Origin: Bradyrhizobium icense
Lineage (GTDB): Bacteria > Pseudomonadota > Alphaproteobacteria > Rhizobiales > Xanthobacteraceae
Direction: 5' to 3'
DNA length: 64,000 nt
Assembly (NCBI RefSeq): GCF_001693385.1
Contig: NZ_CP016428.1
Coordinates: forward strand, 1,054,001 to 1,118,000
Shown piece by piece: positions 6,398-17,085 of the stretch; position 1 is the stretch's first letter; each line of letters opens with the position of its first letter. Position numbers and translations under genes: made by a program. The notes under the pieces are model-generated. The model did no database searches. It had not been told where the DNA came from and saw nothing but the letters and a program-made list of their open reading frames with translations.

Positions 6398-6949
6398 CTC
6401 GCCGACCCGCGAGCGCGGACGGCCGTCCTCAATCTGAGAGCACGATCGGCAGCATGGCTTGATGGCCGCGCAATGAGGCGCTTCTTACCCCAAACAATTC
6501 CGTAAGACATTGAACTCATTGATTTATCTCGCTTTCCTAGGGTTTCTCGTCGCTCCATGATGGTATTCATAGGTCGCCGGTCCTGACCATCGGGCGACCG
6601 GTGTTGAAGCCGCTCGCTGCCAAAGATGAACCGCGGCTGGCCCGCGTTTTCGAAGGCGCAAGCGTTCTCGCGGTGCAGCAACCGGCGGAAACGAGCCTTC
6701 CTGCAACGTGCGACGTCCAACGAAGTCGAACCCGTGCGGCTGCCTCGCACGCACGGCACCGCAGCATGCTGCCGGATGCTCAGGATTCGTAATAGGTTAG
6801 GCAAGGACAAACAGGGGCGGAGCATGTAAAGTCAGTTCGCGCGACCTTGGAGGCCAGCAGTCTGGCTTGCTGCACGATCGGGGGTCGCTGCGTCATCGGG
6901 CGGGCTCGGCTGAGGTTTTGGGAGGGCGAGAGCGAAAACGGAGGAACCG
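6398..6949. other. Gene-free stretch
   Basis: About 550 bp. Several frames are open for 60-140 codons on both strands, but none has a convincing ribosome binding site, recognisable motif or typical codon bias. No terminator, repeat or RNA gene could be identified. A minus-strand frame around 6400-6825 may be old gene debris. Confidence 0.4.
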
Positions 6950-7084
6950 ATGAAAAAGGACATCTGGCAAGAAAACAAAGAGCGCTACTTCGAGTGGAAT
7001 CCTATCGAAGGCCTCGGTGCCAAGTTCACATGGGCTGCGATCGGGGCAGTTGCGGCTGTCATCGCCATGTACCTGCTGCGCTAG
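6950..7084 (+). CDS. Small single-pass membrane protein, 44 aa
   Basis: A 44-codon gene with a strong ribosome binding site (GGAGG at 6940-6944, five bases before the ATG). The protein has a charged N-terminal half (MKKDIWQENKERYFEWNP) and one C-terminal membrane segment (about residues 28-43, ending MYLLR). The combination of a good start site, an amphipathic head and a hydrophobic tail argues that it is real. It precedes the two-component genes by about 200 bp and is separated from them by a palindromic repeat. The function is unknown. Confidence 0.6.
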   Translation: MKKDIWQENKERYFEWNPIEGLGAKFTWAAIGAVAAVIAMYLLR

Positions 7085-7206
7085 AGCGCGATGGGATTAG
7101 ATGGACTTGCGATCGCGCTCCAGGTTTTGATTGAACATGATCTTTTCGGCAAACCGGTACCCACCCCCGACCACGTCGAGGGCAAGCTCTTCGGGATCAT
7201 GCTCTA
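7084..7206. repeat. Rhizobiales-type palindromic intergenic repeat
   Basis: Two nested hairpins form a pattern common between genes in Bradyrhizobium and relatives. GAGCGCGAT (7084-7092) pairs with ATCGCGCTC (7112-7120). GAACATGATC (7133-7142) pairs with GATCATGCTC (7195-7204), around a TTTTCGG..CCGGT core. The left arm overlaps the stop codon of the small gene, so it may also act as a transcript end or stabiliser. Confidence 0.7.
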
Positions 7207-7291
7207 GCTAACTGGCGCGGAGTGGGACGGAGCGCACTCTTCGCTTGCCGCGCTCTCGTGCGGTCGAGCAAGGCGACCCCTGGAGGATGCA

Positions 7292-7666
7292 ATGGCGCAA
7301 AGCGTGCTCGTGGTCGATGACGAGGCCAACATCCTGCTGTCCCTCGAATTCCTGATGAAAAAGGCCGGTTACGAAGTTCGCCTCGCCCGTGACGGCGAGG
7401 AGGCGCTCGCCGAGATAGGCAAGACGCGGCCGGATCTCGTGCTCCTCGATGTCATGATGCCGAAGCGCAACGGTTTCGACGTGTGCGAGGCCATCCGGGC
7501 CAATCCGGAGTGGCGGGCGGTGCGTGTCATCCTGCTGACAGCCAAGGGCCGTGACATCGAACGCGAAAAAGGCCTGGCGGTGGGCGCCGACGACTACATC
7601 ACCAAACCGTTCTCGACGCGCGAGGTCGTGGAACGGGTTACCGCTTGGATCGGGCCGGCCAAGTAA
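7292..7666 (+). CDS. Single-domain response regulator
   Basis: A 124-residue receiver domain and nothing else. The acidic pair D9-D10, phosphoacceptor D53 (LVLLDVMMP), T83 and K105 (DYITKPF) are all present, so it should be phosphorylatable. There is no DNA-binding or enzymatic output domain, so the signal must pass by protein contact. A GGAGG precedes the start. It is followed by a pseudokinase-exonuclease and a CrbS-like kinase; the latter, with an intact histidine, is the likely phosphodonor. CrbR partners known for CrbS kinases carry a LuxR HTH, which is absent here. Confidence 0.92.
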
Positions 7667-7686
7667 CCGGGCAACAAGGGCGAGCG

Positions 7687-9792
7687 ATGCAGGCTGCCGT
7701 TGCGATACCAATCCTCCTCGCAGCATTGGCGCTCGCCGCCTTCGCTGTGTCCGGCGTTGCGCTGTGGCAGGCGGTGCAACTTGGCGGAGCGGTCGGCGTT
7801 TACATGTCCATCGCATTTGCCGTCGTCGCCGCTTTGGTGGCGCTGGCTTGGGCTCTGCTGCATGTCAAGCTCCTCAAGCCCTTGGCCGCTCTGAAGCGGG
7901 AACTGCTGATGCAGTCGCAGATACGCGTCGATCGACCGCTCGCGGTCGATCGCGGCCACTTGCTCAATGGGCTCCCGACGGCGGTCGACAAAATACTCGG
8001 CACGCTCCGAGCTGCGCGTGGCGAGACACAGGAGGCCGTTGATGCTGCCACGCGGCGAGCGGAGGAACAGAAGAGCCGGCTCGAGGCCATCCTGCTCGAT
8101 CTCTCCGAAGGTGTGATCGTCTGCAATCTCGAGCACCGCATACTCCTCTACAACCAGGCTGCCGCCCGGATACTCAACGCGCGCGACACGCTTGGGCTTG
8201 CCCGCTCATTGTTTGGCGTGCTGACGCGAGAGCCCGTGCTATTGACGCTTGAGCTGCTCCTGCAACGGTCAGAGGACGCAGCCGGCGATGAAGCCCGGTC
8301 CACCGCAGAATCGACGCTCGATTCCACGACGCGCCGCTTCGTCTGTGCGTCGGTCGACCTTGCTACTTTGCTGCAGGCGAGGCTCAGCCTGGTGCGCGAA
8401 CCTTCGGGCCGCGCCTCAGGCTACGTGTTGACCTTTGCCGATGTCGGCGCCGAACTCGAGAACGTGGCCCAGCGCGATGCGCTCTTGCGTGAGGTCGCCA
8501 TGGAATGGCGACGGCCACTTGCAAGCTTGCGCGCCGCCGCCGAAATGCTGGCGGGAGAGCTCGAAGCGGGCGAGCGCCGCGTCTTTCAGGACATCGTTGG
8601 CAAGGAGATCGGAACCCTCGATCGGAGCTTTGCCGACGTTGCGCAGCGTTACGAACGCCTTGCGACGGGTCAGTGGCCGTTGGCCGACATTTACTCGCTG
8701 GATCTGTTCCGCGCCGTCCGCAGGCATTTGGCCGACGCCGACGGCATCCAGGTCACCCCCGTGGGCGTGCCGGTCTGGATTCATGCCGACAGCCACTCGC
8801 TGGTGCTTGCGCTCGAGCATCTCATCCGCGCCGTTGCCAGGCACACGGCGAAAGCCGCCTTCGATATCGGCGCCGTGGTGCGAGGCGAGTACGTCTACGT
8901 CGAGGTGGTTTGGGACGGCGCACCGCTCGCCTCGGCGATTATCGAAGCCTGGCTGGCGGAGCCGCTGAAGGGCACGATCGGCAACCGCACGGTCCACCAG
9001 ATCGTGGAGCGACATGGCAGCGAGCTATGGAGCCAGGCGCTGCCAGAGGGGCGCACGTGCCTCAGATTGCCGCTAAGGAAGACCGAGCAGCCACGCGTCC
9101 CGGAACGGTTGGACCGCGTTGCGCCGATGCCGGAGCTATATGACTTCGACTTGTTTGCTCCTTCGACTGAGGCAATCAGGGACACGCCGTTGCACAAGCT
9201 CAACCTGGTCGTCTTCGACACCGAGACCACCGGCCTCAGGCCCAACGAGGGCGATGAGCTCATCTCAGTCGGCGCGGTTCGTGTGGTCAATGGTCGCATC
9301 CTGACGGGCGAGACCTTCGAGCGGCTGATCAATCCGAGCCGCGTTATCCCGGCCAGCACCACGCGAATTCACGGCATCACCACCGAAATGGTGCGCGACA
9401 AGCCCCCTGCCCATGTCATCTTGCCACAGTTCAAGTCCTTCATCGGTGACTCCGTGCTCGTCGCCTACAACGCCGCGTTCGACATGAAATTCCTTGAGAA
9501 CGGAGCCGAGCAGGCAGGCGTCAAATTCGACAACCCGGTGCTCGATGCCCTGCTTCTGTCCATGTATCTGCAGCCGGATGTGTCCGATTTTTCGCTGACC
9601 GCCACTGCCGAACGACTGGGTGTCGAGGTCATTCGCAGGCACACCGCAATCGGCGACGCCATGACCACGGCCGCGATCTTCGTGAAGCTCCTGGATCTGT
9701 TGAAAGCCCGCGGGATCGAGACGCTCGGTCAAGCCGCCAGGATCTCAAGCCGGATGATGGAGCAGCGTCGTCAGCAGGCACAACTTACATGA
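7687..9792 (+). CDS. Membrane pseudokinase fused to a DEDDh 3'-5' exonuclease domain
   Basis: A 701-residue fusion. Residues 5-25 and 36-57 are membrane segments, about 131-235 resemble a PAS domain (RLEAILLDLSEGVIVCN) and about 255-460 resemble a histidine-kinase core. The kinase part looks inactive: M272 replaces the phosphoacceptor histidine in the MEWRRPL motif (active kinases have HExRxPL). The N-box lacks its asparagine (HLIRAVAR near 378-385). From about residue 505 there is a DNA polymerase III epsilon-like exonuclease with all five catalytic residues: D511, E513, D599, H652 and D657. The ATG at 7687 is chosen because an upstream start at 7645 would overlap the regulator gene. The role is unknown; it would tether a nuclease to the membrane in an acetate-response operon. 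Confidence 0.88.
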   Translation: MQAAVAIPILLAALALAAFAVSGVALWQAVQLGGAVGVYMSIAFAVVAALVALAWALLHVKLLKPLAALKRELLMQSQIRVDRPLAVDRGHLLNGLPTAVDKILGTLRAARGETQEAVDAATRRAEEQKSRLEAILLDLSEGVIVCNLEHRILLYNQAAARILNARDTLGLARSLFGVLTREPVLLTLELLLQRSEDAAGDEARSTAESTLDSTTRRFVCASVDLATLLQARLSLVREPSGRASGYVLTFADVGAELENVAQRDALLREVAMEWRRPLASLRAAAEMLAGELEAGERRVFQDIVGKEIGTLDRSFADVAQRYERLATGQWPLADIYSLDLFRAVRRHLADADGIQVTPVGVPVWIHADSHSLVLALEHLIRAVARHTAKAAFDIGAVVRGEYVYVEVVWDGAPLASAIIEAWLAEPLKGTIGNRTVHQIVERHGSELWSQALPEGRTCLRLPLRKTEQPRVPERLDRVAPMPELYDFDLFAPSTEAIRDTPLHKLNLVVFDTETTGLRPNEGDELISVGAVRVVNGRILTGETFERLINPSRVIPASTTRIHGITTEMVRDKPPAHVILPQFKSFIGDSVLVAYNAAFDMKFLENGAEQAGVKFDNPVLDALLLSMYLQPDVSDFSLTATAERLGVEVIRRHTAIGDAMTTAAIFVKLLDLLKARGIETLGQAARISSRMMEQRRQQAQLT

Positions 9793-9844
9793 TCGCGCGC
9801 CGCCGAGGCAGCAACGCAGCGAGGAGCGCATAGAGGTGACACAC

Positions 9845-10114
9845 ATGCCAAGGCGAGGATTGGTTGCCGAGCGCTTGATCGGCTTGTTCCTGTTCGGTTT
9901 GCTGCTGCTCACACCGCCGTTGATCGGCGCCTTCGATAAGGCCACCTTCGTGGGTGGGATACCACTGCTCTACCTCTATTTGTTTCTCTCCTGGGCGTTG
10001 CTGATCGCCCTCACGGCGTTGATCGTCGAGCGGCCCGACCCCGACGAGGAGATTGCCGAAAGCGAGCCTGGCGCGGATCCCGACCAAGTCACCAACCGCG
10101 CACCGCGAGGGTGA
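9845..10114 (+). CDS. Small membrane protein preceding the symporter kinase
   Basis: An 89-residue protein with two membrane segments (about residues 8-30 and 40-65, the second LYLYLFLSWALLIALTALIV) and an acidic cytoplasmic tail. AGAGG eight bases upstream favours the ATG at 9845; a GTG at 9836 is an alternative. It ends three bases before the symporter/kinase gene. Small two-pass proteins often precede sodium/acetate symporters (YjcH/DUF485 and DUF4212 types). This one occupies that position, but I cannot assign it to either family. Confidence 0.75.
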   Translation: MPRRGLVAERLIGLFLFGLLLLTPPLIGAFDKATFVGGIPLLYLYLFLSWALLIALTALIVERPDPDEEIAESEPGADPDQVTNRAPRG

Positions 10115-10117
10115 GCC

Positions 10118-12892
10118 ATGCTGGGCGGGTACGTCATAGTCACGGTCTCCTTCCTCTACCTCTCGATCCTGTTCGCCATCGCCTACTATGGTGACCGCCG
10201 CGCGGATCAGCGTAGGAGCATTATCGCGAGCCCCTACATCTTTGCGCTATCCATCGCCGTGTATGCCACAGCCTGGACCTTTTACGGTAGCGTCGGACGG
10301 GCTGCGTCCTCGGGCGTCAGTTTCCTGCCCATCTATCTTGGCCCGACGCTGACCTTCATCCTTGGCTGGTTTTTGATCCGCAAGATCATCCGCATCAGCA
10401 AGGTCAATCGCATTACCTCAATTGCCGACTTCGTTGCGTCGCGCTACGGCAAGAGTTCCTTCCTGGGCGGGCTGGTGACTATCATCGCGGTCGTCGGCAT
10501 CATGCCGTATATCTCGCTGCAGCTGAAGGCGATCTCGACGAGTTTCGCCGTGCTCCAGCATTACCCGGACATCGTGATGCCGGCCAAGCTTGGCTCGACT
10601 CCGGTCTTGCAGGATACAGCGCTATACGTCGCGGTGATCATGGCCGCATTTGCCATCTTGTTTGGCACGCGGCACATCGACGCCAGCGAGCGTCATGAGG
10701 GCATGGTGGCGGCGATTGCCTTCGAGTCGGTGGTCAAGCTGTTCGCTTTCCTAGCGGTTGGGCTATTCGTCACCTTCGGTATCTATGGCGGCTTCGGCGA
10801 AGTGTTCTCGCGCGCGGCCACCGATCCAGCCCTCGCGCGTCTCTTTACGCTCGAGGCAGCCGGCGGGTACACGAGCTGGATTTCGCTGACGCTGGTCTCG
10901 ATGGCAGCCATTGTCTTGCTGCCGCGCCAGTTTCAGGTGCTGGTGGTCGAGAATGTGGATGAGCGCCACATCAAGAAGGCCATCTGGCTGTTCCCGCTGT
11001 ACATGCTGCTCATCAACATTTTCGTCCTGCCGATCGCTTTTGGCGGGCTCCTCCACTTTCCCGGAAATACGGTCGATGCCGACACCTTCGTGTTGACCGT
11101 GCCAATGGCCGAGCATTTTTGGACCATCGCGTTGTTCGCATTCATCGGCGGCCTCTCCGCGGCAACGGGCATGATCATTGTCGAAACCATTGCCCTGGCC
11201 ACCATGGTGTCGAACGATCTCGTCATGCCGCTCCTCTTGCGTTTCGGCCGCCTGCATCTCTCGGAGCGCAAGGATCTGTCTGGCCTCATGCTCGCCATCC
11301 GCCGCAGCGCCATCATCTTCGTGATCCTGCTCGGCTACGCGTATGTCCGGTTGATCGGCGAATCTTACGCGCTCGTCTCCATCGGGCTGATGTCATTCGT
11401 CGCCGCCGCACAGTTCGCGCCCGCTATCCTCGGCGGCATCCTGTGGAAGGGAGCGACCCGCCTCGGCGCGCTGGCTGGAATGAGCGCCGGGTTCCTGGTG
11501 TGGATCTACACGCTGCTGCTGCCTTCGTTCGCACGATCGGGGTGGATCTCAGAGAGCTTTCTGCAGGATGGCCCGTGGGGGCTTGCGCTGTTCAGTCCCT
11601 ATGCGTTGCTCGGGCTTTCCGGTCTCGATCCCGTTGCACACGCCCTGTTCTGGACCATGGCGGTCAATGTCGGGTTGTACGTTGCTGTGTCGCTTGTGAC
11701 GACGCAGACCATGATCGAGCGCAGCCAGGCCGTACAGTTTGTCGACATCTTCAAGCAGCCATCCGAGGGCGCGCGCATTTGGCGTGGCACGGCCACCATT
11801 GGCGACCTCCGTCGCCTCTCGAACCGCTTCATCGGTGAGACCCTGACGGAACAAGCCCTCCAGCGCTTCGAGCGCGACCGAGGGCGCCGGCTCGACGATG
11901 CGCATGCGGCGGACGCGGACATCGTGCATTACGCGGAGCGGCAACTCGCCGGCGCCATTGGTGCGGCCTCCGCGCGGATCATGATCGCCTCAGTGTTGAG
12001 GGAGGAGATGCACGACATCGACGAGGTCATGCAGATCCTCGATGAGGCTTCTCAACTCGTTGTCTACAGCCGTCAACTGGAGGAGAAGTCGCAGCAGCTC
12101 GAGGCTGCGACGGCAGAGCTCAGGGCGGCCAACGAGCGGCTCAAGGAGCTCGACAAGATGAAGGATGACTTTGTCTCGACGATCAGCCATGAGTTCAGGA
12201 CACCGCTCACCTCGATCCGCTCCTTCAGTGAGATCGTGCACGACAATCCGGACATTCCCGTCGAGCAGCGCAAGATGTTCCTTGGTACTATCGTTCAGGA
12301 AACCGAGCGGCTGACCAGGCTTGTCAACGACATCCTCGACCTCGCCAAGATGGAGGCCGGCCAGACGGATTGGCAACTGGCCAGGATCGAGCCAAGGAAG
12401 GTGATCGACAACGCGCTCGCCGCAACGGCCGGCCTCTTCGCCAAGAACCCTCGCATCAAGCTCAAGTGTCGCGTGGCCGAGGACCTGCCGAGGATTCTCG
12501 TTGACGCCGACCGGATCACGCAAGTGCTGGTCAATCTGATTTCCAACGCGGTCAAGTTCTGCGACAAGGACGATGGTTTGATAACCATTGTGGGGCGAGC
12601 AGAAGCGGGATCCATCCTGGTCAGTGTGCGTGACAATGGTGTCGGTATCGCCAAGGAGGATCACAAGAAGATTTTCGAGCGCTTCCGCCAGGCGGGTGAC
12701 ACATTGATCGGCAAGCCGCAGGGCACCGGTCTGGGGCTGCCGATCAGCTTGCATATCCTTGAGCGCTTCGGGGGCACCATCTGGGTCGAAAGCGAACTCG
12801 GCAAGGGTGCGACTTTTTTCGTCCGCATCCCCTCGGCCGCCGCTTCGGCCGAGTTCCTCCACTCGGCCACCGCCGCTCGCGAAATCACTTGA
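10118..12892 (+). CDS. CrbS-like sodium/solute symporter fused to a histidine kinase
   Basis: A 924-residue protein. The N-terminal half (about 1-480) is an SLC5-type symporter with roughly 13 membrane segments. A linker with a STAC-like position follows, then a coiled coil (EEKSQQLEAATAELRAANE, near 650-675). The kinase core has H691 in TISHEFRTPLTSIRSF, the N-box NLISNAVKF, the DNGVGIAKED box and GTGLGLP. All catalytic features are intact. There is no PAS or receiver domain at the C-terminus, unlike some CrbS proteins. Known CrbS kinases sense or transport acetate and control acetyl-CoA synthetase; an acs gene 2.2 kb downstream supports the same job here. Confidence 0.92.
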   Translation: MLGGYVIVTVSFLYLSILFAIAYYGDRRADQRRSIIASPYIFALSIAVYATAWTFYGSVGRAASSGVSFLPIYLGPTLTFILGWFLIRKIIRISKVNRITSIADFVASRYGKSSFLGGLVTIIAVVGIMPYISLQLKAISTSFAVLQHYPDIVMPAKLGSTPVLQDTALYVAVIMAAFAILFGTRHIDASERHEGMVAAIAFESVVKLFAFLAVGLFVTFGIYGGFGEVFSRAATDPALARLFTLEAAGGYTSWISLTLVSMAAIVLLPRQFQVLVVENVDERHIKKAIWLFPLYMLLINIFVLPIAFGGLLHFPGNTVDADTFVLTVPMAEHFWTIALFAFIGGLSAATGMIIVETIALATMVSNDLVMPLLLRFGRLHLSERKDLSGLMLAIRRSAIIFVILLGYAYVRLIGESYALVSIGLMSFVAAAQFAPAILGGILWKGATRLGALAGMSAGFLVWIYTLLLPSFARSGWISESFLQDGPWGLALFSPYALLGLSGLDPVAHALFWTMAVNVGLYVAVSLVTTQTMIERSQAVQFVDIFKQPSEGARIWRGTATIGDLRRLSNRFIGETLTEQALQRFERDRGRRLDDAHAADADIVHYAERQLAGAIGAASARIMIASVLREEMHDIDEVMQILDEASQLVVYSRQLEEKSQQLEAATAELRAANERLKELDKMKDDFVSTISHEFRTPLTSIRSFSEIVHDNPDIPVEQRKMFLGTIVQETERLTRLVNDILDLAKMEAGQTDWQLARIEPRKVIDNALAATAGLFAKNPRIKLKCRVAEDLPRILVDADRITQVLVNLISNAVKFCDKDDGLITIVGRAEAGSILVSVRDNGVGIAKEDHKKIFERFRQAGDTLIGKPQGTGLGLPISLHILERFGGTIWVESELGKGATFFVRIPSAAASAEFLHSATAAREIT

Positions 12893-12923
12893 TCGCAACG
12901 TGGCGAGTTGCGCGCCAGCTAGT

Positions 12924-14408
12924 TCAGAGCGAGCGTTCCGCGAATTCCATATTCAGTGTTGCACGCAGGTTTTCGATGGCGCGGAAAGACGCCACGAGAT
13001 GTTTGTTTTCGCGTGGTGAGAGATCAGCCACGGGGACATAATTGGTGATCTTGCGCCCGGCCTTGAAGTCCTCCAGCTGCTGGCGCAGCAGGAGACGGGT
13101 TATATGCCTGAACGCGTCGGCAAGATCCTCATGGTCTCCAGCGCTGATGGCTCCCTTCTCCTTGAGGCAGTCAAGCCGGGTGAGAGTCGACGTGGCCGGA
13201 ATGCCGGCTTTAAGCGCAAGTAGCCGCGCACCCTCCACGAGCGGTAGCGTTCCACGAAGCTTCAGGTTCACCACACCCTGCCGATCCTCCCCATGGTACT
13301 CCTTGCGCAAGCGTCCGAACCAGCCGAGAGCCACCTTGTGTTCGGCTTCGATGGCGAACAGGTGTCGGAGGAACTGAGGGTACGCCGGTGTTACTGCAGT
13401 GACGTGGGTGCGGAGTTCGCTTGAGAGTGCGGGATCGCCGAACGCATGACGGAAATCGAAGAAGATATCGCAGTTCAACAGCATCTCGGACTCGCGCCGC
13501 CTGATCCAGTTGTCGATCTGCCGGCGCCAATCCGACAGGCTCTTGCGCCAGACGGGATTGGTGGCCATGACATCGCCGACGCAGAGGCGAAAGCCGATCG
13601 CGTCAAGCATCCGCGTCATGCGCTCGGCAAGCTCCAGAAAATATGCGTCCGCACGCTTGCCTTGGCCGCCGACGTCGTCAGCGAGGATGAAGCCATTGTC
13701 CTGGTCGGGCGCCAGAAAGTTTTCGCCGCGCCCACCCGACCCCATGATAATGAGAGCGAACCGCGCAGGAGGCTCCCCCCAGCCGTCGTCGCGCATCGCC
13801 GCTTCGACCAGCCTCAAGACACGTCGGTGGATATCGTTGTTGATCTCCGTGAGCAGCGACTGCACCTCCGGCGCCGGAACGTTGTTGTCCAACAGTGCGC
13901 TGGCAAGCTGGGCCTGCGCCTCCTTTATGAGGTGCAGGCCCTCGACGCTCTCCTCGTGCGTGAGTTGCTCGATGAGCGACATACTCTCGCTCGACAAAGA
14001 GGCGAGCGCTTCGTCCAGGGCGAGCATGCCGATCATCGCTCCGCTCCAGTCCACGACGGGGACATGCCGAAGCTTGCTACGGCGCATCAAGGCGACCGCC
14101 TGGAAAAGGTATTCGTCGGCCCCCGCCACGACGACCGGCGACGTCATCACCGACTCGACGCCTTGATCGGGCTCCGTACGCCACGCGATCCGACGCACGA
14201 CGTCTTGTTCCGTCACGATGCCCCTGGGCCGGCCCGCGCCATCGATGACGACAGCGCAGGACGCAGGCGTCGCCGTCATCAGGCTTACGACCTCGCTCAC
14301 CGTCGCGCTCGGTGCAACACGCACAGGCGGCGGTCGCATATGGTCGCGTACGAGGCGCCGGAAAATCTCGGTTTGCGTACTCAATGGTGGTTTGCTCCGT
14401 GGACCCAC
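12924..14408 (-). CDS. CBS-pair and DUF294 nucleotidyltransferase-like protein
   Basis: A 494-residue soluble protein. Two CBS domains fill about residues 22-140, followed by a helical region and a DUF294 nucleotidyltransferase-like domain with the hallmark MGSGGRGENFLAPDQDNG near residues 215-235. The C-terminal DUF294 substrate-binding domain follows. CBS pairs usually bind adenine nucleotides, so activity may respond to AMP/ATP or acetyl-adenylate status. It converges on the CrbS-like gene and lies on the same strand as acs. The GTG at 14408 gives the longest frame; a TTG at 14384 with GGAG ten bases upstream (start LSTQTEIFRR) is equally plausible. Confidence 0.88.
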   Translation of the reverse strand: MGPRSKPPLSTQTEIFRRLVRDHMRPPPVRVAPSATVSEVVSLMTATPASCAVVIDGAGRPRGIVTEQDVVRRIAWRTEPDQGVESVMTSPVVVAGADEYLFQAVALMRRSKLRHVPVVDWSGAMIGMLALDEALASLSSESMSLIEQLTHEESVEGLHLIKEAQAQLASALLDNNVPAPEVQSLLTEINNDIHRRVLRLVEAAMRDDGWGEPPARFALIIMGSGGRGENFLAPDQDNGFILADDVGGQGKRADAYFLELAERMTRMLDAIGFRLCVGDVMATNPVWRKSLSDWRRQIDNWIRRRESEMLLNCDIFFDFRHAFGDPALSSELRTHVTAVTPAYPQFLRHLFAIEAEHKVALGWFGRLRKEYHGEDRQGVVNLKLRGTLPLVEGARLLALKAGIPATSTLTRLDCLKEKGAISAGDHEDLADAFRHITRLLLRQQLEDFKAGRKITNYVPVADLSPRENKHLVASFRAIENLRATLNMEFAERSL

Positions 14409-14743
14409 ATGCTCCAGGCACGATCATCAGGCCACGATTTGAACCTACCACTACGCGGTTCGCGCTTATGGCCTCCGGCTACAGTCTAGATTATATTGTA
14501 GTTCACATGGGAGTTCGAAGTCTTGTTCTGGGTGGCGCGCCATGGCTCTGGACGCTCGGAATTTTCACGGTTTCAGCTAACGGTCCACTCTGTTTTGGCC
14601 GGGGGGAGCGCCACTATCTTTGATGCAGGTTTGTCACGCCGCACCTAGCTGGTGCTGAAATGTGTCAGCGACCGATCGCCCGCTGGACACCCAGCTCTCG
14701 CCGTCCGCGACTGCTGCGCGCTCCGTGGTTCCCGCGATTGGCG
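14409..14743. other. Gene-free stretch containing dispersed repeat copy A
   Basis: About 335 bp between two minus-strand genes. It holds one copy of a 32-bp dispersed repeat (14511-14542). No other gene, promoter or terminator could be supported. Confidence 0.4.
14511..14542. repeat. Dispersed 32-bp repeat ending in TGGCGCGCCA, copy A
   Basis: Starts GAGTTCG and ends with the perfect palindrome TGGCGCGCCA. Related copies lie at 17479-17510 (same length) and 20650-20680 (one base shorter). All three are in the same orientation and in intergenic DNA. Between copies A and B, 27 of 32 positions agree by eye. Confidence 0.7.
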
Positions 14744-15057: not shown

Positions 15058-17085
15058 CTAGGATTTCATCTTTCGAATCTCATCGACGATCTCGGGATTG
15101 GCCAGCGTCGAGATGTCGCCGGCGTCCTCGTCGTTCGAAATCGCCGCAAGCACACGGCGCATGATCTTGCCAGAACGGGTCTTTGGCATGTCGGGCACCA
15201 TCACGATACGGCGCGGGCGCGCGATGGCCCCAATCTCCCGGATTACGGAATCTTCTACTCGCTTGCGGATGGATTCGTTTGGTGCGAGTCCGGGCTTCAG
15301 CGATACGTAAAGGTCGGGGATCTTGCCTTTGATCTCGTCTCTGGCGGGGACGACTGCCGCTTCCGCGATCTCTTCAACAAGCAGGCTGGCGGATTCGATC
15401 TCCTTGGTCCCAAGCCTATGCCCGGCCACGTTGATGACATCGTCGATTCGACCCAGGATGCGATAATAGCCATCGGCCGCCTGCAGAGCGCCGTCGCCGG
15501 CCATGTACGGCCAATCGCGCCAGTCACGGCTCGTTCGGTCCTTGCAGTAGCGCGCGTAGTACTGTTGGACGAAGCGATCGGGGTCTTTCCAGATCGTCTG
15601 AAATGAGCCCGGCCAGGGGTTCTGGATGCAGATGTTTCCGGCACGGCCGGAGCGCGGTGGAATCTCGGCGCCTGCCTCGTCATAGATGATCGGGTGAATG
15701 CCGGGCACGGCCGGCCCCGCGCTTCCCGGCTTCATGGGATGAAGAGCCGGCACCGTGCTGCACAGAAAGCCGCCGTTCTCCGTTTGCCACCAGGTGTCGA
15801 CGATGGCCGCCTCGCCCTTGCCAACGACCTCGTGGTACCACTTCCACACTGCCGGTTCGATGGGCTCGCCCACCGTGGTCATATGCTTGAAGTGGTGATT
15901 GTACTTCGGCGGCTCGTCGGGCCCAGCGCGCCGAAGCGCCCGTATTGCTGTCGGCGAGGTGTGAAAGATGTTGACGTCGAGTTCTTCGGCGATGCGCCAC
16001 GGACGCCCCGCGTCGGGATAGGTAGGAAGCCCCTCGTACACCACCGAGGAGGCTGCGAGCGCCAGTGGCCCATAGACGATGTAGGAGTGACCTGTGATCC
16101 AGCCAATATCGGCCATGCACCAGTAGACATCCTCCGGATGGATGTCCTGAATGTATTTCGACGTTCCCGCGACGTAGGACAGATATCCACCGATGCTGTG
16201 CTGACATCCCTTCGGCCTCCCGGTGGTGCCGCTGGTGTACATCAGGAACAGCGGATCTTCCGCAGCCATTTCCACAGGGTCGACCCGGCGCCGCCGATAG
16301 GCCGACAACATCTCGTTCATGACGAAATCGCGGCCCCCAACCAGCGGCGTTTTGCTTGAATATCGCCCCGGATACCTCTGCCACACGAGCACCTTCTCGA
16401 CATTGACGCCTTCCTTCTCTGCCTCGCTGACGGCGACGTCGGCTTTCTCCTTGTGATCGAGAAGCTGGCCGCCACGGCAATAGGCGTCCATTGTGATCAG
16501 CACTCGGCTTTCGGAATCGACGATGCGATCTGCCGTGGCCTTCCCGCTGAAGCCGCTAAAGACTTGCGAGTGAATGACCCCGAGCCTGGCGCACGCGAGC
16601 ATCGTAATCGGAAGCTCTGGCACCATGGGCATGTGCAACGTCACCCGGTCGCCCTTCTTGAGACCGCAGCCATCTCGCAACAATGCGGCGACCTCGTTCA
16701 CGCGCACATAGAGATCCTGGTAGGTGACGTGCTGGATCGCTTCGTGCTCCGGCTCGGGGACGAAGTGGATCGCCGTCTTGTTCTTGTACTTGGCGAGATG
16801 GCGATCGACGCAGTTGTAACTGGCGTTGATCCTGCCGCCGACGAACCAGCGCCAGAACGGTGGATTGCTCGTATCGAGCGTGATGTCCCAGGGGCGGTAC
16901 CAGTCAAGAAGGTCGGCGTATTCCTTGAAGCAGTCCGGGACGTTATCGAGACTGAATCGATCGAAGACCGCTTTGTCGGTCAGGTTGGCCTGCGCGAGAA
17001 ATCTCTCCGGCGGGTTGACGTAGTTCTCTTCCTGCCAGTGGACCGCGATCTCGGCTTCCGACACTTCTGCTGTGCTTTGTGACAT
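15058..17085 (-). CDS. acs: Acetate-CoA ligase (acetyl-CoA synthetase), AMP-forming
   Basis: A 675-residue adenylate-forming enzyme converting acetate, ATP and CoA to acetyl-CoA, AMP and pyrophosphate. Visible signatures are the ATP-binding loop YTSGTTGRPKG, the acetate-pocket region DTWWQTENGG whose tryptophan limits acyl size, the YMAGDGA/GRIDDVINVAGHRLG core and the PKTRSGKIMRR lysine, a common acetylation target. The length and tryptophan favour acetate, but propionate or acrylate cannot be excluded. It is divergent from a UPF0182 gene. The neighbouring CrbS-like kinase and DUF294 protein suggest acetate-responsive control. Confidence 0.88.
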   Translation of the reverse strand: MSQSTAEVSEAEIAVHWQEENYVNPPERFLAQANLTDKAVFDRFSLDNVPDCFKEYADLLDWYRPWDITLDTSNPPFWRWFVGGRINASYNCVDRHLAKYKNKTAIHFVPEPEHEAIQHVTYQDLYVRVNEVAALLRDGCGLKKGDRVTLHMPMVPELPITMLACARLGVIHSQVFSGFSGKATADRIVDSESRVLITMDAYCRGGQLLDHKEKADVAVSEAEKEGVNVEKVLVWQRYPGRYSSKTPLVGGRDFVMNEMLSAYRRRRVDPVEMAAEDPLFLMYTSGTTGRPKGCQHSIGGYLSYVAGTSKYIQDIHPEDVYWCMADIGWITGHSYIVYGPLALAASSVVYEGLPTYPDAGRPWRIAEELDVNIFHTSPTAIRALRRAGPDEPPKYNHHFKHMTTVGEPIEPAVWKWYHEVVGKGEAAIVDTWWQTENGGFLCSTVPALHPMKPGSAGPAVPGIHPIIYDEAGAEIPPRSGRAGNICIQNPWPGSFQTIWKDPDRFVQQYYARYCKDRTSRDWRDWPYMAGDGALQAADGYYRILGRIDDVINVAGHRLGTKEIESASLLVEEIAEAAVVPARDEIKGKIPDLYVSLKPGLAPNESIRKRVEDSVIREIGAIARPRRIVMVPDMPKTRSGKIMRRVLAAISNDEDAGDISTLANPEIVDEIRKMKS

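Follow-up and report, generated by a model that had tools for sequence, protein, structure and literature searches.

A membrane-anchored pseudo-histidine-kinase joined to a predicted DEDDh exonuclease, encoded beside a CrbS-like kinase in Bradyrhizobium icense

Most known two-component systems act on transcription, on enzymes of second-messenger metabolism or on further kinases. In Bradyrhizobium icense, one gene appears to join a nuclease to a histidine kinase core without its catalytic residues, and it lies between genes for a single-domain response regulator and a kinase resembling CrbS, which raises the question of what a nuclease might do in such a system and what the kinase remnant might do for the nuclease. 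Here we address this question within a stretch of 64,000 nucleotides (the window; contig NZ_CP016428.1, positions 1,054,001 to 1,118,000), using alignments of homologues, profile and fold comparisons, and gene neighbourhoods.

The gene runs on the forward strand from ATG 7687 to a stop at 9792 and encodes 701 amino acids; its longest open frame begins at TTG 7645, but because this codon falls inside the regulator gene, ATG 7687 is the likelier start. Sequence and model comparisons confirmed that the predicted product consists of a membrane hairpin, a PAS domain, a degenerate histidine-kinase core and a DEDDh exonuclease, all encoded on the same strand. The transmembrane hairpin and the start of a signalling helix take up residues 3-78 (7693..7920), with hydropathy peaks at residues 3-21 and 40-58 and model helices at residues 3-32 and 36-78. 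The PAS domain (residues 131-255; 8077..8451) is matched weakly in the window protein by PF00989/PF08448 (E 4e-4), and PAS_4 is matched by 52 of 65 aligned family members at E up to 0.1. A DHp-like two-helix domain, recognised by profile, model and alignment (residues 253-326; 8443..8664), aligns M272 (codon 8500-8502) with the phosphoacceptor histidine, and the CA (ATPase) domain that follows (residues 333-466; 8683..9084) has lost the N-box and the glycine motif. An aligned, conserved linker (residues 481-490; 9127..9156), in which D486 is invariant in 72 sequences and E483, Y485, F487 and L489 are kept in 90% or more, leads to the DEDDh 3'-5' exonuclease domain at residues 508-665 (9208..9681). 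Hydropathy, the structural model, profiles and alignments agree with a preliminary description of the locus on the membrane helices, the PAS domain and a kinase core with M272 in place of the phosphoacceptor and no N-box.

Relatives of this protein are widely but unevenly distributed. In a scan of GTDB genomes, at least 577 stretches were found to code for a relative of the query. The best 80 loci (L004-L083) were kept, and counts on these describe the nearest relatives only. The 80 come from Alpha-, Beta- and Gammaproteobacteria, Magnetococcales, one Nitrospirota and one Acidobacteriota metagenome-assembled genome, and 79 were aligned (L015, with no intact frame, was left out) and are referred to as distant homologues. 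A set of close homologues was drawn from the best 120 matches and, once P0027 and sequences outside 690-725 amino acids had been dropped, held 111 proteins including the query. The fusion occurs in 37 of 299 sampled Pseudomonadota genomes (E 1e-50) and in 15 of 385 sampled Alphaproteobacteria (E 1e-60), three of the latter matching over the exonuclease part only. Its distribution is patchy even within the window's genus, where two of the seven genomes in the 299-genome sample have it, B. icense included. A recent local pseudogene or an accidental fusion is ruled out by the 80 kept relatives together with the conserved nuclease residues described below.

The kinase core seems to be dead throughout this family. 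In Pfam, neither HisKA nor HATPase matched the full window protein at E 0.1; the kinase fragment alone matched HisKA at E 0.088, and across the 65 aligned members HisKA was matched in 24 and HATPase in one. A profile of these 65 members nevertheless aligned over PAS, DHp and CA with the solved VicK/WalK-type kinase 4i5s (E 1.6e-19) and also matched the pseudokinase DivL (4q20, E 1e-8), and the predicted fold of the kinase part, DHp and CA alike, resembles histidine kinases, DivL among them. A functional histidine, which would speak against a dead kinase, was found in none of the 110 close full-length homologues (V in 88, I in 8, Q in 7, M and L in 2 each, N, T and E in 1 each) and none of the 79 distant homologues from the best 80 of 577 loci (E in 57, D in 7, R and A in 3 each, I, S and T in 2 each, M, N and K in 1 each). 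It was likewise absent from 106 regulator-fusion pairs, which include the window and 67 of the distant loci. The N-box asparagine was not found in columns 377-385 in 73 of the 79 distant homologues, and the CA glycine motif was found in the kinase region of none of the 79, as against 44 of 46 neighbouring CrbS-like kinases searched over the whole frame. The fusion protein is therefore without the phosphoacceptor histidine, N-box and glycine motif of an active HisKA/HATPase kinase. Among the 46 neighbouring kinases the histidine is kept in 45 and the N, D and G motifs in 44, the remaining cells being gaps. Two other residues of the fusion's kinase core are kept almost throughout the 79 distant homologues (W409 in 77, G411 in 76), so the core is not simply decaying. 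Judged from these alignments, the fusion is a standing pseudokinase family adjoining kinases that look alive.

The other half of the protein apparently is an intact-looking DEDDh exonuclease with putative 3'-5' activity, in line with the epsilon-type domain described earlier. It matches PF00929 at E 8.5e-36, and its predicted fold is close to PolC and epsilon. All five catalytic residues, D511, E513, D599, H652 and D657, are present in 79 of 79 distant homologues (from the best 80 of 577 loci) and 109 of 110 close ones (the exception being P0102), although this conservation is in part by construction, since the genome scan used two patterns and one of them contains D511 and E513; D599, H652 and D657 lie outside both patterns. 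The fold and the five residues are shared with the DEDDh exonucleases DnaQ epsilon, the PolC exonuclease, RNase T and TREX, from which the fusion differs in its membrane anchor, its attachment to a pseudokinase and, for the nine DnaQ rows compared, its place in a separate clade. It passes the cut-off of the broad epsilon-family model TIGR00573 (100.5 versus 71.5 bits) and falls below that of the proteobacterial DnaQ model TIGR01406 (114.9 versus 222.7 bits), which the genome's own DnaQ gene (C1:2124-2603) passes. In an exonuclease tree, the pseudokinase-linked domains group together in a single clade (98/96), separate from the nine DnaQ rows, all of which pass the TIGR01406 cut-off. Stand-alone relatives were sought with the exonuclease domain, but many of the best 120 of 1141 matches were apparently pieces of the same fusion, and neighbourhoods were used instead.

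Directly upstream lies the regulator gene (7292..7666, +), encoding 124 amino acids with a receiver match (Response_reg, E 3.8e-30), the receiver residues Asp53 and Lys105, and no DNA-binding domain. Such a regulator immediately precedes the fusion in 67 of 75 testable loci from the best 80 of 577, testable meaning that enough flanking sequence was present (75 of 79 loci for the regulator, 45 or 43 for other neighbours), and it was not found there in the other eight; this makes it the most constant neighbour counted. Asp53 is kept in 66 of these 67 regulators (one has E) and Lys105 in all of them. A second count, which may share genomes with the first, found the regulator directly upstream in 38 of 46 loci and not in eight; its receiver residues are intact in this set too.

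Downstream, a small hydrophobic protein of 92 amino acids (9836..10114, +; sub-threshold DUF3311, E 0.061) precedes the CrbS-like kinase (10118..12892, +), which has 924 amino acids, HisKA and HATPase domains by Pfam and no REC. Over residues 2-655, the N-terminus of this kinase shares 43% identity with the genome's hybrid kinase (C1:623739-625673), and it aligns with an SSF transporter by hhalign (probability 86.6, E 4.5e-6, 145 columns) and BLASTP (E 2e-4); Pfam gave no SSF match in the kinase, and we accept its likeness to a transporter on this weaker evidence. The next gene, on the reverse strand (12924..14408), encodes a nucleotidyltransferase-like protein of 494 amino acids with the Pfam layout CBS-CBS-DUF294-DUF294_C. 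Within 5 kb of the fusion, a CrbS-like kinase occurs in 33 and a CBS-DUF294 protein in 31 of 45 testable loci from the best 80 of 577. As first described, the fusion thus has a single-domain regulator on one side and a CrbS-like kinase on the other, and much of the neighbourhood is conserved.

The association with the kinase, which had been suggested as a check along with that of CBS-DUF294 proteins, also extends to whole genomes. Of the 299 Pseudomonadota genomes sampled, the fusion is present in 37, a non-hybrid CrbS-like kinase scoring over 900 bits in 27 and both in 25 (Fisher p 3e-25); with any such kinase at E 1e-100 the figures are 30 of 37 genomes with the fusion versus 85 of 262 without (p 2e-8), these p values being guides, as the 900-bit threshold was chosen with the scores already in view, the genomes are related and two to three candidates per genome were fully scored. 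Kinases outside the over-900-bit group are negatively associated with the fusion (5 of 37 versus 83 of 262). Seven of the 37 fusion genomes have no CrbS-like kinase at E 1e-100, and in one of the sampled genomes, G290, whose completeness is rated at 100%, no regulator was found upstream of the fusion and no such kinase at that threshold.

The locus had also been described as an acetate-sensing operon, a claim that stands in part. A gene for acetyl-CoA synthetase (acs; 15058-17085, −) lies nearby and exceeds the TIGR02188 cut-off (749.4 bits, cut-off 724.95), but it is on the other strand from the fusion and outside the conserved unit. A 7.9-kb block (6543..14419) recurs in Bradyrhizobium sp. 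LMTR 3 (match 97.9%) between flanks that differ on either side, and holds a 44-aa ORF, the regulator, the fusion, the small hydrophobic protein, the kinase and the DUF294 gene. The counterpart of the LMTR 3 left flank lies elsewhere on the B. icense chromosome, at C1:538.6-541.7 kb, and the right flank matches that chromosome in pieces only, one of them at C1:547.2 kb. A second close genome, G237, has its left flank in common with the window, and its match on the right ends at 14555, before acs, which thus lies outside the stretches shared with two close Bradyrhizobium-type genomes. From these comparisons the block behaves as a unit to which acs does not belong. It could be a mobile or translocated cassette. 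The 44-aa ORF (6950-7084), preceded by a GGAGG-like site and ending in a hydrophobic stretch, has clear matches only in L004 and G237 (L195, L212) among the loci searched.

An acs-like gene within 8 kb of the fusion was found in nine of 43 loci from the best 80 of 577 and in none of the others, and this count, together with the position of acs outside the shared block, weakens the case for acs as part of the module. In eight loci (L042, L043, L057, L060, L066, L072, L077 and L079), mostly betaproteobacterial, an acs-like gene, kinase, regulator and fusion follow one another on one strand, and a link to acetate is therefore likely in part of the family, although these acs-like genes could encode acetyl- or propionyl-CoA synthetases.

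Each half of the fusion has known relatives, and the pairing of an exonuclease with a CBS protein in a CrbS/R-type regulon is already published. CrbS/CrbR (MxtR/ErdR), the acetate switch, and RpuS/RpuR have kinases with a transporter-like N-terminus and are linked to acetate or pyruvate use (PMC5715377, PMC5436829, PMC9100948). The window kinase shares such an N-terminus and the kinase core with CrbS. CrbS/CrbR is described, in the passages seen, as a hybrid kinase with a LuxR-family regulator (PMC5715377, PMC9100948), unlike the window kinase, which has no REC by Pfam, and its candidate partner, which has no DNA-binding domain. In Pseudomonas putida, PP_0353 (an exonuclease) and PP_0354 (a CBS protein) form an operon tied to the CrbS/R-type system MxtR/ErdR; in the sections of that report consulted, a PP_0353 mutant is delayed in growth on pyruvate and has no phenotype on acetate at 20 mM, and a role in mRNA decay is raised as a speculation (PMC9927547). 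That operon and the window have in common an RNase_T-family exonuclease with a CBS protein and an SSS/STAC kinase system. The same sections describe PP_0353 as a putative stand-alone exonuclease, with no PAS domain, kinase core or adjacent single-domain regulator, unlike the fusion (PMC9927547). The nearest precedent for the other half is DivL of Caulobacter crescentus, a binding partner of DivK~P that lacks both kinase and phosphatase activity, according to the parts of the source consulted (PMC4211667). DivL, in that account, acts on the kinase CckA and has no reported nuclease, unlike the fusion (PMC4211667). With DivL the fusion shares the missing phosphoacceptor histidine, a PAS input and a single-domain regulator as candidate partner, the partner being identified by adjacency of the genes. 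The earlier opinion that the mechanism is undescribed must therefore be narrowed by PP_0353/PP_0354 and DivL; it holds for the fusion itself, in that among the titles, abstract openings and passages of open-licence PubMed Central articles, a corpus without subscription papers and preprints, we recognised neither the fusion, nor a regulator-fusion-kinase-DUF294 neighbourhood, nor a two-component output of this type.

A second locus in the same genome (C1:615-626 kb) brings the same components together in another layout, with an SSF transporter and a DUF4212 protein, a 710-aa DEDDh exonuclease-CBS-CBS-DUF294-DUF294_C fusion (L088:6451-8583, equal to G000:C1:618450-620582), a LuxR-type regulator and a hybrid kinase of 1170 amino acids with PAS, HisKA, HATPase and REC domains. 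Its hybrid kinase and LuxR-type regulator recall CrbS/CrbR. Exonuclease and DUF294 are thus one protein at this locus, neighbours in several sampled genomes and separate genes of the block in the window. In the exonuclease tree, which did not include PP_0353, the pseudokinase-linked clade groups (84/83) with 13 of 23 DUF294-linked exonucleases, fusions included; the other ten fall elsewhere, and the pairing of exonuclease with DUF294 may therefore have arisen more than once.

The simplest reading, by analogy with DivL, is that the kinase core may have been turned from an output into an input. The fusion protein would be a membrane-anchored, presumably dimeric pseudo-histidine-kinase serving as the input module of a DEDDh 3'-5' exonuclease. 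The CrbS-like kinase may sense acetate or a related monocarboxylate and phosphorylate the single-domain regulator, which would then bind the fusion at its DHp helices, much as DivK~P binds DivL, the PAS domain providing a second input, and the resulting change would reach the exonuclease by way of the conserved linker. A more speculative idea is that the nuclease acts on a product connected with the CBS-DUF294 protein, a link suggested by genome context, as the two are neighbours and, at the second locus, one fused protein. We put forward the DivL-like reader of a phosphorylated regulator, gating an attached nuclease, tentatively and at a little short of an even chance. It is supported by the loss of kinase residues across the family with the fold kept, by the conserved nuclease residues and the intact receiver residues, and further by the regulator directly upstream, the co-occurrence of the kinase, the second locus, the exonuclease tree and the DivL precedent; the loci with no upstream regulator, G290, the seven fusion genomes with no CrbS-like kinase and the position of acs outside the block count against it.

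Also against it, coevolution of the regulator with the DHp domain did not stand clearly above that with other protein parts. In runs on 68, 106 and 93 pairs, 35 of 423 windows scored as high with 106 pairs, and, under clade-preserving shuffles of 93 pairs, 54 and 134 of 367 windows did so. In the 106-pair test the regulator windows that cover helix alpha-1 (7-18 and 13-24) ranked top among 19 values for the DHp block; in the 93-pair test other segments were higher. Such an outcome would also suit a kinase core that is a mere dimerisation or linker module, with a membrane-tethered nuclease either controlled by a PAS ligand or constitutive and a regulator that serves the CrbS-like kinase for another output, adjacent through the operon. 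Consistent with such a module, the PAS domain is among the best conserved parts of the protein (mean identity to the query 0.88 at residues 126-150 and 0.78 at 151-175 in 21 representatives; N156 invariant in 72 sequences), and G290 and other loci have no regulator that was found upstream. We nevertheless consider it somewhat unlikely, as the regulator is the most constant neighbour and a mere linker would not need the CA fold, which is kept despite the loss of the ATP motifs.

The pseudokinase might instead form a dimer with the CrbS-like kinase encoded nearby, or inhibit it, as RetS does with GacS; its signalling role would then be on that kinase, with the exonuclease as a separate, membrane-held output. 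Foldseek matches of the fusion protein include structures of the RetS kinase region, and the co-occurrence with the non-hybrid kinase and its proximity agree with such a role, which we still regard as unlikely: the kinase is absent within 5 kb in 12 of the 45 long-flank loci, whereas the regulator is so seldom missing, and the consensus of DHp helix 1 differs from that of the neighbour, so that a mixed helical bundle, while possible, is not favoured. Much less probable still is an ordinary DnaQ/PolC-type replication or repair exonuclease fused to a decaying kinase gene with no regulatory meaning. The fold near PolC and epsilon, the TIGR00573 score and the name DNA polymerase III subunit epsilon, which sources give to homologues, would suit it; the TIGR01406 score, missed by the fusion and reached by the genome's own DnaQ, the clade apart from DnaQ, the recurrence of the fusion and much of its neighbourhood across classes, and the retention of W409 and G411 do not. 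The cut-off, the tree and the conservation of the locus equally disfavour an ordinary DnaQ duplicate.

Returning to the DivL-like reader, a bolder extension, which we think doubtful, is that binding of the phosphorylated regulator to the dead kinase would open or close the exonuclease, which would oppose a DUF294 nucleotidyltransferase under CBS control. The two would share a substrate, be it an RNA end, a nucleotidylated protein or an oligonucleotide messenger, and form a writer-eraser pair set by the carbon and energy state. If a dead kinase is indeed wired to a nuclease in this family, nutrient sensing would have a direct route to RNA, DNA or nucleotide turnover instead of transcription, and the principle of DivL would be extended from one cell-cycle protein to a family across several classes. 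The fusion family also provides a way to approach DUF294 proteins and the pyruvate phenotype of PP_0353, which is so far without explanation.

Some further features of the family and of the window may be recorded here. Eleven relatives (L014-L016, L049, L051, L055, L057, L064, L070, L075 and L082) are labelled Accumulibacter, Propionivibrio, Contendobacter or Competibacteraceae, L049 being labelled Pseudomonadota only; these are groups known from acetate-fed wastewater. P0027, a metagenomic protein of 1154 amino acids, joins the pseudokinase-exonuclease to CBS-DUF294, and may be an assembly chimera, given that the junction falls within the exonuclease domain, which has lost its end. Near the start of the window, at 280-630 on the reverse strand, there is a PemK/MazF-like toxin gene (PF02452, E 1e-21).
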